Origin: Streptomyces sp. SUK 48
GTDB taxonomy: Bacteria; Actinomycetota; Actinomycetes; Streptomycetales; Streptomycetaceae
Assembly: GCF_009650765.1 (NCBI RefSeq)
Contig: NZ_CP045740.1
Span: 5,556,001 to 5,620,000, forward strand
DNA length: 64,000 nt
Direction: 5' to 3'
Program-made: the position numbers and the translations under genes
Part shown: positions 8,885-64,000 of the stretch, piece after piece
Layout: every line of letters starts with the position of its first letter
Position numbering within the stretch: the stretch's first letter is position 1
The notes under the pieces: generated by a model
What the model saw: only the letters and a program-made list of their open reading frames with translations
Told to the model about the DNA's origin: nothing
The model's database searches: none

Positions 8885-9787
8885 TCAGGCGCCGATCTCC
8901 TCCCCCGTGCCGCGCGCGGCCGGAATCACACACTCCGCCGGGTCCCCGCCGGACCCCGCGGCCGTGGCCGCGCGGGCGCGTCGGCGGGCCAGCGGGGCGG
9001 CCAGCGCGGTCAGGACGACGAACGCGGCGATGGTGAGCAGGACGATCGTCGCGCCGGGCGGAACGTCCTGGTAGAACGACGCGATCGTGCCGCTGACGGT
9101 CACCGTGATGCCGAGCGCCACCGCGATCGCGAACGTCATGGCGAAGCTGCGGGTGAGCTGCTGGGCCGCCGCCACCGGCACCACCATCAGCGCGGAGACC
9201 AGCAGCAGCCCGACGACGCGCATGGCGACCGTCACCGTGATCGCCGCCGTGACGGCCGTCAGCAGGTTCAGGGCGCGCACCGGCAGCCCGGTGACCCGCG
9301 CGAACTCCTCGTCCTGGCTGACCGCGAACAGCTGGCGGCGCAGGCCGAGGGTGACCAGCACCACGAACGCGGCCAGCAGGCAGATCGCGAGGACGTCGGA
9401 CGGGGAGACCGTGGACAGGGAGCCGAAGAGGTAGGTCGTCAGGTTGGCGTTGGAGCCCGTCGGCGCCATGTTGATGAACATCACGCCGCCCGCCATGCCG
9501 CCGTAGAAGAGCATGGCCAGCGCGATGTCGCCGCGCGTCCTGCCGTACCAGCGGATCAGCTCCATCAGGAGGGCGCCGAGCACGGAGACCGCCGTCGCCA
9601 TCCAGACCGGGGAGGTGGACAGCAGGAAGCCGAGGCCGACGCCGGTCATGGCGACGTGTCCGATGCCGTCGCCCATCAGGGCCTGGCGGCGCTGGACCAG
9701 GTAGATGCCGATGGCGGGGGCGGTGATGCCGACCAGGACGGCGGCGAGCAGGGCCCGCTGCATGAAGGCGTAGTTCAGGAAGTCCAT
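8885..9787 (-). CDS. znuB: Zinc ABC transporter permease ZnuB
   Basis: A 300-residue polytopic permease of the ABC-3 family (Mn/Zn/Fe type). It begins with FLNYAFMQRALLAAVLVGITAPAIGIYLVQRRQALMGDGIGH, in pieces the usual start of the family, and has about eight hydrophobic segments. Its ATG overlaps the znuC stop by one base. With ZnuC and ZnuA it imports zinc. Confidence 0.93.
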   Translation of the reverse strand: MDFLNYAFMQRALLAAVLVGITAPAIGIYLVQRRQALMGDGIGHVAMTGVGLGFLLSTSPVWMATAVSVLGALLMELIRWYGRTRGDIALAMLFYGGMAGGVMFINMAPTGSNANLTTYLFGSLSTVSPSDVLAICLLAAFVVLVTLGLRRQLFAVSQDEEFARVTGLPVRALNLLTAVTAAITVTVAMRVVGLLLVSALMVVPVAAAQQLTRSFAMTFAIAVALGITVTVSGTIASFYQDVPPGATIVLLTIAAFVVLTALAAPLARRRARAATAAGSGGDPAECVIPAARGTGEEIGA

Positions 9788-10563
9788 CAGCTCAGCAGTC
9801 CCGTGCGGATCGGTTCGGCGCCCGCGGGCGCGTGCGGGTGTACGTGGTCATGGCCCGGCAGCGCATGCTGGCCGACGGCTCTCGGGGGCGGCCCGTCGTG
9901 CAGCACGCAGCCGTCGCGCAGGACGACCGCGCGGTCGATCAGCGGTTCCAGGGGCCCCAGTTCATGCAGCACGAGGAGGACCGTCGTACCGGCCTCCACC
10001 TGCGTCTTCAGCGTCCGGGCCAGGATCTCCTGGCTGGCCAGGTCGACGCCGGCCATCGGCTCGTCCATGATCAGCAGTTCGGGGCGGGCGACGAGCGCGC
10101 GGGCGATCAGCACGCGCTGGTGCTGGCCCCCGGACAGGGCGTTCACCGAGTCCCTGGCCCGGTCCGCCATGCCGACGTGCTCCAGGGCCTCGCGCACGGC
10201 GTCCCGGTCGGCCCTGCGGAAGGGGCCGAAGCGGGTGCGGGCGAGCCGGCCGGAGGAGACGATCTCGGTGACGGTCGCCGGGACACCGCCCGCGGCCGTG
10301 GTGCGCTGCGGTACGTAGCCCACCCGGGACCAGTCGCGGAAGGCGCGCCGGGGGGTGCCGAACAGCTCGATGGCGCCGTCGGCGAGGGGGACCTGGCCGA
10401 TGATCGTACGGATCGCCGTGGACTTGCCGGAGCCGTTGGCCCCGAGCAGGGCGACGACCTCGCCGCTCCCGACGGTCAGATCGATGCCGCGCAGCACCGG
10501 GCGGCCGCCGAGGTCGGCCCGTACACCGCGCAGGGATATGACGGGTTCGCCGTGCGTCTCCAT
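9787..10563 (-). CDS. znuC: Zinc ABC transporter ATP-binding protein ZnuC
   Basis: A 258-residue ATPase with Walker A GANGSGKST, signature LSGGQHQRV and Walker B ELLIMDEPMAGVD, plus a His-rich C-terminus (HALPGHDHVHPHAPAG) that fits a metal transporter. The ATG at 10563 is chosen since GGAG lies seven bases upstream; a GTG at 10578 is possible but lacks a site. It follows znuA closely and is coupled to znuB. Confidence 0.94.
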   Translation of the reverse strand: METHGEPVISLRGVRADLGGRPVLRGIDLTVGSGEVVALLGANGSGKSTAIRTIIGQVPLADGAIELFGTPRRAFRDWSRVGYVPQRTTAAGGVPATVTEIVSSGRLARTRFGPFRRADRDAVREALEHVGMADRARDSVNALSGGQHQRVLIARALVARPELLIMDEPMAGVDLASQEILARTLKTQVEAGTTVLLVLHELGPLEPLIDRAVVLRDGCVLHDGPPPRAVGQHALPGHDHVHPHAPAGAEPIRTGLLS

Positions 10564-59800: not shown

Positions 59801-60838
59801 TCACGCCGCCAGCGGGTCCAGGACCAGCGGCTCGATCCGGCCCTCCAGCATCTCGCCGAGCCCCCGGGCCGCGCACACGTCCGGGCGCTCGGCGATGAAC
59901 ACCGGCATCCCGGTGGCCTCGCGCACCATCTGGTCGAAGCCGGGCAGCAGCGCCGAACCGCCGACCATGATGATCCCCCGGTCGGCGAGATCGGCCACCA
60001 GGTCCGGCGGGCACTCCCGCAGCACCTTGCCGATGCCGTCCAGGACGGCCGTCAGCGGGGTCTGCACCGCCCCCCGCACCGCCGAGGTGTCCACCCGTAC
60101 GGTGCGCGGCAGCCCGGTGACCACGTCCCGGCCGTTGATCTCCGTCTGGGGCGGACCCTGCGGGGTGAGCCCGTTGCCGGACAGGGCCAGTTGCAGCGGC
60201 CGTACCGACTGGCTGGGCAGCAGCAGCTCATGCTGGTGCCGCAGGTACTGCACGACCGCGGTGTCCACGGCCTCCCCGCCCACCGGAATCCGCTCGGCCG
60301 TGACGATCGAGCCCAGCGACAGCACCGCGACCTGCGTGGCCGCCGCCCCGCACACCATGATCATGGTGGCCTCGGGCCGCTCCACCGGCAGCCCGCAGCC
60401 CACCGCCGCCGCGATCAGCGTGTCCACCAGCTCCACCCGGCGGGCGCCGAGCCCGAGCAGCGTCTCGATCGTCGCCCGCTGGGCCAGCGGATCGGCGTCG
60501 TGCGGGGTGCAGGCGGCCGCGCGCAGCCGGGCCTTGCGGCGCAGCGCCCGGCGCATCTTGTCGCCCATCAGATGCCGCAGCATCCGCTGGGCCATGTCGA
60601 TGTCGACCACCGTGCCGCCGGAGATGGGCCGTACGACCCTGATGTAGTCGGGGGTGCGGCCGGTCATCTGCTCCGCGAAGTCGCCCACCGCGATCAGCGA
60701 GCCTGACCGGACGTTCACGGCCGCCACCGAGGGCTGGTCCACGACGAGCCCCGCGCCCTTCACATACACCCGGGTACGGGCCGCGCCCAGGTCGACGGCG
60801 AAGTGACAGCGGCGCAACTGCTCCAGGCTGACGGACAC
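59801..60838 (-). CDS. mbl: MreB/Mbl-like actin homologue
   Basis: A 345-residue actin-fold protein. GTG 60838 has GGAAGGAG upstream; earlier starts are weaker. Seen: phosphate-binding loop FAVDLGAARTRVYVKG, which differs from the DLGTANT-type loop by Ala for Thr; MVCGAAATQVAVLSLG; IMVGGSALLPGFDQM. Likely the Mbl homologue of Streptomyces rather than MreB (no mreC/D neighbours). It helps build the spore wall in relatives. It lies 144 bases after the multidomain gene. Confidence 0.9.
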   Translation of the reverse strand: MSVSLEQLRRCHFAVDLGAARTRVYVKGAGLVVDQPSVAAVNVRSGSLIAVGDFAEQMTGRTPDYIRVVRPISGGTVVDIDMAQRMLRHLMGDKMRRALRRKARLRAAACTPHDADPLAQRATIETLLGLGARRVELVDTLIAAAVGCGLPVERPEATMIMVCGAAATQVAVLSLGSIVTAERIPVGGEAVDTAVVQYLRHQHELLLPSQSVRPLQLALSGNGLTPQGPPQTEINGRDVVTGLPRTVRVDTSAVRGAVQTPLTAVLDGIGKVLRECPPDLVADLADRGIIMVGGSALLPGFDQMVREATGMPVFIAERPDVCAARGLGEMLEGRIEPLVLDPLAA

Positions 60839-60982
60839 GGCAGCTCCTTCCGGGCGCGGGATTTCGGCTCTTCCTGCTCTTCGTATCCTGCGCGGCACGC
60901 GGCCCGGGCCGCCTTTTCTGGGGGGCCGGGCGGGGCGCCGCCGAACGGGGGTAATCGCCCGGGCTCCCGGAGTGTCGCCGGG

Positions 60983-63900
60983 TCAACCGGCGCGGACGGC
61001 CTCCAGCAGCGGTTCGAGCGTGCCGACCACGGCCTCCGCCCCGGCGTCCTGGAGCAGTTGGCGTGCGTCGGCGGACGGCGCGAACCCGATGAAGGGCAGA
61101 TTGAGCCGTTGAGCCGCCGTCAGCTCGGCCACCGAGGAACCGAGCAGGACCCCGGTGCGGGCCGGAGCGCCGAGATGCTCCAGGGCCCGCAGCAGACAGT
61201 GCGGGTTCGGCGTCAGCAGGCCGAGATCCGCGCGCCGCCCGTGCACCCCCGCGAGCGGCAGCCGGTACGACTGCACACCGTGCTGCACCGCCCGGGAACT
61301 CACGTCCGACACCACGCTCACCCGCCGACCCGACGTGTGCAGCGCCCGCACCAGCGCGAGCGAACGGTGCGTCATGGGCGCGTCCGGTACGGCGGCCAGC
61401 TCCAGCTCCTCCAGCCGGTCCCGCAGTGACGGCCCGAGCGGATCCCGCGCGAACGCGCGCAGCAGATCCAGCGGGTGCGGGAACGGACTCCTGGCCGCGG
61501 ACCACGGGGACACCGACAACGGCAGTCCCGCCAGGGCGCTCTCGGGGTCGCGGTTCTCGGCCACGACCTCCAGCAGGGTGAGGACGGCCGTCCGCGCGCG
61601 ATGCGCCGCGAACAGCCGGGTGAGGGGGCCGTCGAAGCCGATCAGCACATGTGCGGCGCCGGTGAGCGCGGCCACCGCCCGGTGCCGCGCGGTCACCGGC
61701 GATCGCGGGGCCGGGGCGGGCTCGGGCTCGCTCCGCGCCCCCAGCCGCACGGTGTACGTCACCGCGAGCCCCGGCACCGGCCAGTCGCGCACCCCGTCGT
61801 TCACCGCCCGCTCGGCCGCGCCCGGCCGGCGTGCCGGATGCCGGCCGGTGATCCGCGCCGCGGCCGCCCGCAGGCGCTCCCGCAACAGGGCGGAGATCCC
61901 GGTGGCGCCGGACCGCACGAAGGCGACCGGGTCCTCGACCCGCCAGGTCAGCTCCGCCGAGGCGGTGAACTCGGCCTTCCCGGAGCTGGGCAGGGACAGT
62001 CTGTGCCGCGCCTGCTGCACGGTGAGGTCCACGGTGTAGTACGTCTCCGCGCGCGGCGCCCGTCCGCCGTACGGCCGGATCGGGTCGAGCACGGTCAGCG
62101 GGCCGTCGGCGCGGGTGTGCACGACGGCGGCGCGGCCCGGGGTGGGCACGCCCAGCTCGCGCAGGTCCTGGGTGAGGAACGGGCCCTGGACCAGGTCGCG
62201 TCGGGGGTGCCCGGCGGTGAGCGGGCAGTACCAGGCCAGCGGCGGCGCGGCCGGGACGTCGTCGGCGTACAGCGGCTCGAACGGCGGGGCGCCCCGGGCG
62301 GCGGAGCTGGCGGCGAACTCGTCGTGGAGCGCGGGGGGACGAGGACGTCGATGCCGGTGGCGGCCTCCGGCAGCCGTACCGGACGCTGCCCGAACGCCAC
62401 CCGCAGCCGGGTGCGCTCGGCGAACCGGGCCAGGGCGGGCGGGAGTTCCCGCAGCACGGCGACCAGGACCGGCAGCAGATAGGTGCCGGGCTCGACGTCC
62501 ACCCGGTAGCCGTCCGGGCGGACCCGCACCTGGAACCGGCCCGGGGGCAGCGAGCGGGTGAGGATCTCGTGCACGGCGGCTTCGAGGGAGATCCGGGTCT
62601 CGGGGCGGCCGGTGAGATCGTCGGTGGTGAAGAGGACCCGGGTGGTGTCCGGGTGGGTGCTCAGGGGGCCGGGGGCGAGTCCGGCGAGGAGCTCGGTGAC
62701 CGTCCGCAGGGCCTCGGCGCGGCTGCCGGGCACGGCCGGCGCGGCGTCCAGGCAGGTCAGGACCGGCCCGTTCGGGGAGAGGACCACGGACCGGGCGGTC
62801 AGCTCGCCGCGCGGTCCCTGCGCCGCGTGCAGGGCGAGGACCGCCTCGCGCAGCCTCGGCCGCAGTTCGCGCACCTCGTCGGGGGACAGCCCGCCCGGAC
62901 CCTCGGCCAGACGCTCGTGCAGGGTGCTGCCCGCCACGAACTCCCGTACCAGATAAGGCTTTCCCTCGGCGAAGCCATGGTCGAGAACCCGCGCGATCCC
63001 CGGGTGCCGCAGCTCCGCGAGGTCCTGGCAGAGCGGGCCGAAGGGTTCCTGGTACTCGCCCGGCGCATACCGGCACACGACGACCCGCGCGTCCCCGTTC
63101 CACGCGTCCTCGGCGACCCAACCGCCGTGCCCCGCCGCCGACTTCCGCAGCAGCCGGTACCGCCCCGCGAGCAGTCCCCCGCCGCCGGCCGGTGCCAGCC
63201 TGCGCACGCTCTCCTCGCTGAGCATGGCGACCGGCTGCCGCTCCACCGGCGTCGGCGCGCCCCCCGGGGACGGCACCACCGCCCGGAACCCGCCCGGCGC
63301 CCGGCCCGCCAGCTCGTCGATGAACTCACCCATCCGGTCCAGGAGTTCGACCGTGCGGTTGCGTTCGGTGCGGGGCAGGCCGAGCAGCAGCAGTTCCCGT
63401 ACGCCCTCCCGGAACGCGTACGACCCGGCCGGTGCCCCCGGCAGCGCGGTGAGCATGCCGCTGAGCACCACCTCGGCCAGGTGCCGGGGCCTCGGGTCCG
63501 GCTCCACCGCGGCCTGCACCAGCCGCATCACCGGCAGATCCGGCCGCCCCAGCGCGAGATGCCCGGCCAGCCGGAACGCCTCCGGGGACGCCGTCGCCCG
63601 GAACCGCAGCACCAACTCCTCGGCGGACAGCCGGCCGACGTCCGTACGGTCCTCCGCGTCGACCGGCAGCGGACGCGTCAGCCGGGCCGCGGCGGCGGGG
63701 AACCGGGTGCCGCCGGGCGCGCTGACCAGCCCGGCCCAGTTCGCCAGCCAGCGCGGCTCGGGCTCCAGCACCGGCAGGACCACCGCGCCCGCCCCGGCGT
63801 CCGGCTCCGGGGTGTCGTACGGCTCCGGGGTGTCGTACGGAGTGAAGGTCAGCGCGGCCGAGGCTGCCGCGGGATGCGGGGCCGCGAGGCGGCCGGGACA

Positions 63901-64000
63901 GGCGGGCAACGCCGATTCCCGCCAGAGGTGTTCGGGCAGCGGCTGGACGACGGCCAGCGGCATCCGGCGTGCCCAGCGGTGCAGGGTGGCGTACCACCGG
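60983..64000 (-). pseudogene. Large SAV_2336-like / pseudokinase / HAD-like protein gene, frame broken and partial
   Basis: A minus-strand gene running off the right edge. From 64000 to about 62331 the frame encodes VVQPLPEHLWR and a helical region resembling SAV_2336-related proteins (FRATASPEAFRLAGHLAL, HLAEVVLSGMLTAL), then a kinase-like domain at about 63162-62668 without the catalytic Lys, HRD or DFG. The frame then shifts at a run of six G (62333-62338); the following frame (62330 to stop 60983) continues smoothly as ALHDEFAASSAARG and a conserved region (about 62330-61700) that may be SPFH-like. The end (60983-61657) is HAD-like but lacks the catalytic Asp (GFDGPLT), Lys and motif IV Asp. 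One G more would join both halves. Unshifted, the first frame ends at 62095 in low-complexity sequence. Confidence 0.7.

Follow-up and report, generated by a model that had tools for sequence, protein, structure and literature searches.

Degenerate kinase and HAD folds in a probable VMAP conflict-system protein encoded beside mbl in Streptomyces

What is the function of a protein that joins two apparently dead catalytic folds in one chain, and does its position beside an actin homologue tie it to the cell wall or to defense? The gene that raises this question lies on the minus strand of Streptomyces sp. SUK 48, in a 64,000-nucleotide stretch that we refer to as the window (positions 5556001-5620000 of an 8.34-Mb one-contig genome). 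A sequence-only reading had described a SAV_2336-like region, a dead kinase fold, a conserved middle, and a dead HAD fold, a layout that profiles, alignments, and structure models confirm. It had also called for extension to the right. In a 20-kb segment fetched around the right edge of the window (L009), the gene, which occupies window positions 60983-64000, starts 878 bases past the window end (L009 8878). Its parts and its neighbor within the window are as follows.

59801..60898, minus strand: Mbl (MreB-like actin homologue), a syntenic neighbor not judged part of the system
60983..61702, minus strand: C-terminal pseudo-HAD; nucleophile Asp, Lys, and motif IV Asp gone; motif I +2 Asp, motif II Ser, and motif IV Glu present
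61703..62317, minus strand: tentative Band7/SPFH-like region upstream of the HAD, from global hhalign against shuffles; no Pfam match
62325..62345, minus strand: frame break in a C-rich stretch; intact alleles known elsewhere
62344..62643, minus strand: conserved segment (RPExRxxLExxVHE...) between the kinase and the Band7-like region, from sequence conservation
62644..63171, minus strand: pseudokinase domain without VAIK Lys, HRD, or DFG; fast evolving
63244..64000, minus strand: part within the window of the SAV_2336/vWA-type core and helical extension, from NF041121 and a MIDAS-type Asp pair

In transcription order, the minus strand of L009 encodes Trypco1 (12260-11868), a trypsin-VMAP-C protein (about 11871-9958), MoxR (9923-8868), the SAV_2336-type protein (8878-4983), and Mbl (4898-3801). 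At two junctions, MoxR to SAV_2336 and Trypco1 to VMAP, the start of the downstream gene overlaps the stop of the one before it. Further upstream of this cassette come a subtilase gene on the plus strand (L009 12493-16194) and genes for a carboxyltransferase (ACC) and an acyl-CoA synthetase.

The upstream genes bear out the earlier suggestion of an association with MoxR/vWA-type NTPase systems. The VMAP protein matches the VMAP-C domain (PF20028, E = 3e-39) and Trypsin_2 (E = 1.6e-10), with the His, Asp, and Ser motifs of the protease intact; Trypco1 (PF19493, E = 1.7e-26) is encoded beside it. MoxR carries an AAA_5 domain (PF07728) with both Walker A and Walker B, and its N-terminal WPVYTG and PPWRAF correspond to the WxhapG and PsWRxa motifs of PMC7159879. 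The order VMAP, MoxR, vWA component on a single strand is that of VMAP ternary systems. As described in the available portion of Kaur, Burroughs, Iyer, and Aravind (eLife 2020, PMC7159879), MoxR-vWA subsystem 1 has the same order, trypsin-VMAP-C, Trypco1, and MoxR motifs, and its third gene also encodes an inactive kinase, Band7, and a derived inactive HAD without Lys; the SUK 48 copy differs in being frameshifted. The gene thus very probably encodes the component in the vWA position of a VMAP ternary conflict system, in an operon of Trypco1, trypsin-VMAP-C, MoxR, and the vWA protein. It is less novel than the earlier reading implied, since the architecture is already on record in that paper, where such systems are, in the same portion, reported as common in multicellular bacteria.

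A second comparison is with the DGR-linked VMAP systems of Thiohalocapsa (PNAS 2024, PMC10907252). According to the available sections of that paper, these also have MoxR, a vWA target protein, trypsin-VMAP, and Trypco1, but vary a C-type lectin domain by retroelement; the cassettes studied here vary by whole-module insertion and loss and by fast substitution. PADLOC named no system at the locus, returning weak kinase, AAA, and protease hits alone, and a search of open-access literature found no paper matching SAV_2336 or SCO2448-2451. A 2,038-aa minus-strand open reading frame upstream was considered as a giant VMAP protein and rejected, its first 1,200 or so residues being antisense to the plus-strand subtilase. 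That subtilase (Peptidase_S8), between ACC and the cassette, leaves an antisense frame open for more than 1,200 codons, which could be misannotated as part of a VMAP protein.

The N-terminal half of the chain holds a SAV_2336-type core of putative vWA type. The NF041121 match spans residues 46 to 525 of ORF1, the upstream piece of the broken frame. The MIDAS-type Asp of strand-1 and strand-4 (D, T, and D positions) are invariant in 120/120 relatives, in an alignment of the best 120 of 1,074 matches. The vWA fold itself gave no match to the core in Pfam (to E = 10) or in a PDB profile search; by hhalign it scored 15.3 locally, where 20 shuffles reached at most 14.5, and 2.4 globally, within the shuffle range. 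The [D/E]xxx[D/E]xxxa motif of the vWA N-terminal extension is present literally in 1/120 relatives, and a related ELAE[LV]LWLA in 112/120. A model of the protein's own N-terminal half, built from 18 rows, has a mean pLDDT of 53.5. The same genome encodes a second SAV_2336-type domain at 1283672-1284670 (L011), within a 1,414-residue open frame.

The gene is not intact here, as the earlier reading had said, and the break can be placed. ORF1 is 98.2% identical to residues 1 to 849 of P0018 (1,292 aa) and ORF2 is 98.2% identical to the remainder; since the two matches split P0018 after residue 849, the break lies near window positions 62332-62338. GC content by codon position switches frame over about 62239-62418. 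Could the break be functional, giving a two-part protein or a programmed frameshift rather than reflecting mutation or assembly error? It separates the pseudokinase and middle part from the Band7-HAD part, and each piece is a long open frame. However, the allele P0018, 98% identical, is one uninterrupted 1,292-residue chain, and 40 of 42 mbl loci with module matches read in a single frame, although the other two (L112 and L118) are broken too; we regard a functional break as extremely unlikely. Because the gene for the vWA component is frameshifted, either the system is inactivated in this genome or the sequence is misassembled at this point.

The C-terminal domain has the HAD fold and lacks the catalytic set of a HAD phosphatase (nucleophile Asp, motif III Lys, and motif IV Asp). 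In a model of the C-terminal half of a relative (L044; mean pLDDT, 82.1), the last 225 or so residues form a HAD fold. Among the best 120 of 1,074 relatives, the nucleophile Asp is found in 0/100 (97 Gly, 3 Ala), the Lys in 0/102, and the motif IV Asp in 0/99, while the +2 Asp/Glu is kept in 99/100, the motif II Thr/Ser in 98/100, and the motif IV Glu in 99/99. The HAD is present in 27 of 30 complete proteins from mbl loci, with the same pattern: Gly at the nucleophile position in 27/27, nucleophile Asp, Lys, and motif IV Asp in 0/27 each, the +2 acid in 26/27 (L077 has Asn), motif II Thr/Ser in 25/27 (Ala in L067, Gly in L116), and the motif IV Glu in 27/27. Motif II Ala or Gly also occurs in L025 and L032.

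HADs from elsewhere in Streptomyces provide a comparison. Of 18 loci examined, 17 gave a HAD alignment. Nine of these (L033-L041) lie outside the cassette in open frames of 230 to 603 aa and are 34 to 39% identical over the HAD region; all keep Asp, Asp, Thr, Lys, Asp, and Asp, whereas the eight cassette-type HADs lack the full site, without nucleophile, Lys, or motif IV Asp. Because the catalytic residues are gone while the +2 acid, motif II, and the motif IV Glu are near-universal, the pseudo-HAD appears to have lost its chemistry and mostly kept its other conserved residues. The kept residues may form a ligand pocket; they could instead serve fold stability rather than ligand binding. Kaur et al. 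(PMC7159879), in the available portion, note that the derived HAD without Lys often occurs with one inactive-kinase version and with cyclases.

The kinase domain is likewise without the residues of an active Ser/Thr protein kinase (VAIK Lys, HRD Asp, and DFG Asp), in line with the description of most kinases in such systems as inactive in the same part of that paper. Across the 120-protein alignment the VAIK Lys is found in 1/98, the HRD Asp in none of 97 listed letters, and the DFG Asp in 0/97, a last count to be read with the Asp that 61 rows carry one column past the DFG position, so that a shifted DFG Asp is possible. One protein, L105, retains the VAIK Lys. In the N-half model, the kinase part has block pLDDT values of 68 to 88, and its best Foldseek match is PknA.

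This part of the chain evolves fast, and modules are lost and inserted; the gene family has the hypervariable C-terminal effector modules of VMAP systems. In relatives the kinase domain is sometimes absent or has a wHTH-BTAD after it, and BTAD is found in 19 of 30 complete proteins from mbl loci. With kinase presence set by eye, 6 of 31 cassettes lack the domain, with at least 5 changes on the Mbl tree; a Band7 match is absent from 9 of 31, with at least 8 changes. Compared with S. griseofuscus DSM 40191 (L043), the kinase has dN 0.36 and dS 0.52, and the vWA core dN 0.04 and dS 0.15; MoxR, the vWA core, and Mbl together span dS 0.11 to 0.17 and dN 0.025 to 0.041. The Band7 part (dS 0.27) and the HAD part (dS 0.34) were measured against the same strain. 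The raised kinase dS suggests replacement by recombination in the L043 comparison alone: kinase dS is not raised against L044 (0.32; vWA core, 0.29) and slightly raised against L048 (0.49; vWA core, 0.41). The N-terminal linker (dN/dS 1.53) is poorly aligned and was not relied on.

Between these two folds, the Band7-like region is assigned tentatively. It has no Pfam match in the SUK 48 protein, and no relevant family was matched in the related proteins L154-L158; its global hhalign score against Band7 was 12.68, compared with at most 3.54 in 20 shuffles, but at a probability of about 1%. In the available portion of PMC7159879, Band7 is described as strongly coupled to a C-terminal HAD. A Band7-HAD query taken from L044 (E ≤ 1e-30) matched 6 of 121 genomes, all Streptomyces, and none in the other 16 genera drawn. 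Separately, the proteins L154-L158 (G075, G019, G006, G093, and G132) are Streptomyces open frames of 538 to 687 codons, 37 to 41% identical to the Band7-like region, which in them leads into a charged tail that is probably a coiled coil. The order of strands and helices in the model raised the idea of a class III cyclase fold for the segment preceding the Band7-like region. We rejected this: hhalign against PF00211 rows scored 14.2 locally over 12 columns (at most 13.3 in 8 shuffles) and 2.0 globally, below 10 of 20 shuffles.

We then asked how the cassette is distributed beside mbl. Loci were drawn as the best 80 of 467 Mbl matches, nearly all Streptomyces, and the sample is therefore biased to close relatives. 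Sixty loci had at least 9,990 bases upstream and were counted; the 20 shorter ones were left out (11 with cassette pieces, 2 with none, and 7 too short). VMAP-C, MoxR, and vWA are all present in 30 of the 60, L093 has a HAD stump alone, and 29 have no match to vWA, MoxR, VMAP-C, or HAD queries. Among the 29, ACC lies upstream in 25 (with the subtilase between in 5), and in the other 4 no ACC lies within 10 kb. The cassette has one slot, between the ACC gene and mbl. In four of five pairs of empty and occupied loci, homology ends near the end of ACC and restarts 63 to 134 bases upstream of the start of the mbl match in the empty locus. The empty member of the fifth pair, L106, is an apparent deletion scar, with a trypsin piece and a HAD tail (the tail read by eye) at about 9250-9870.

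The cassette has been gained and lost repeatedly at this fixed slot. On the Mbl tree (61 rows, SUK 48 included), its presence requires a minimum of 16 changes (bootstrap range, 14 to 17), of which starred branches force 9; shuffled presence requires a mean of 20.5, and 14 of 500 shuffles were as low as observed. Because 16 changes compare with a shuffled mean of 20.5, cassette presence seems slightly clustered yet prone to frequent turnover. Apparent relics beside mbl, namely, HAD tails in L106, L093 (8029), G067, and G040, suggest loss by internal deletion. One genome (G125:C2:819474-833536) has about 9 kb of other DNA between cassette and mbl, so the slot may collect further insertions. A bolder interpretation is that the slot is a dedicated Streptomyces immune site, at which versions of a MoxR-protease machine swap dead-enzyme baits and the pseudo-HAD is a selected ligand-holding sensor, its nucleophile removed and its pocket residues kept, that guards phospho-signaling against invaders; we consider this unlikely and offer it as speculation.

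Does the cassette work with Mbl, as a cell-wall regulator? The gene is the immediate same-strand neighbor of mbl in many Streptomyces strains, and NF041121, the SAV_2336 domain, lies within 10 kb of Mbl in at least 22 of 150 genomes (counted by eye). Against such a role, an Mbl- or MreB-type match is present in 150/150 genomes, whereas 29 of the 60 mbl loci lack module matches and 30 lack a complete cassette; NF041121 also occurs away from mbl, and the minimum of 16 changes on the Mbl tree, with those forced by starred branches, weighs in the same direction. Distance matrices of MoxR, VMAP-C, and vWA agree mutually at rho 0.80 to 0.88, values that cassette subtypes may inflate, and with Mbl at 0.23 to 0.31. 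The rho with Mbl exceeds all 500 permutations for each core gene, so some shared descent of cassette and Mbl remains. Because the core genes covary with one another and weakly with Mbl, the link looks positional, and a cell-wall regulator acting with Mbl is very unlikely. On present evidence Mbl is a neighbor, not a partner, and the functional tie to the actin homologue raised in the earlier reading is not supported. The words MreB and actin have no occurrences in the main text of PMC7159879.

The other half of the earlier proposal, a scaffold or sensor in defense, fares better: the protein is best read as a sensor, bait, or scaffold of a defense-like system. The explanation we favor overall, to which we give about an even chance, is a VMAP ternary conflict system with a dead-enzyme bait as its third component. 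The dead kinase and HAD folds, on a Band7-like multimerizing stalk, would act as baits or decoys for invader molecules aimed at live kinases and phosphatases. Through the vWA core, bait binding would signal to the AAA+ ring of MoxR; the ring would then remodel the complex and turn on the trypsin domain of VMAP, with proteolysis as the putative output and a presumed antiviral effect. Catalytic motifs are intact in just two parts of this operon, trypsin and MoxR.

The same system could run in the opposite direction. As proposed by Kaur et al., in the available portion of PMC7159879, VMAP would be the sensor and effectors would be freed by proteolysis: VMAP senses, MoxR remodels, and trypsin cleaves the vWA protein, so that the dead kinase and HAD are set free to act as decoys or dominant-negative effectors. 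A chain of several joined modules would lend itself to such release, and the proposal is summarized in the available sections of PMC10907252, which for its own loci favors sensing by the vWA protein, with the VMAP protease acting as effector. The modules, however, are dead and fast changing, without output activity of their own, and the trypsin motifs are intact. We hold this direction to be possible but somewhat doubtful. Because the protease and ATPase motifs are intact, whereas the vWA chain yielded no catalytic site, we infer that the vWA protein is the more plausible sensor. The literature searched, as far as it was available, contained no experimental test of a VMAP ternary conflict system.

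VMAP systems with an inactive kinase, Band7, and an inactive HAD in the third gene were already known from the available portion of PMC7159879, in which a fixed slot by mbl, its repeated emptying and filling, and a residue-level HAD pattern were not found. Added here are the residue-by-residue pattern of HAD loss, the turnover of the fixed slot by mbl, and the covariation of the core genes set against their weak covariation with Mbl. The finding is real and mostly explained, and it adds a population picture of cassette turnover beside mbl. Sister strains in which this fixed slot is naturally occupied or empty provide a ready comparison for dead enzymes as immune baits, and a HAD that has lost exactly its catalytic residues and kept others provides a handle for testing that idea.
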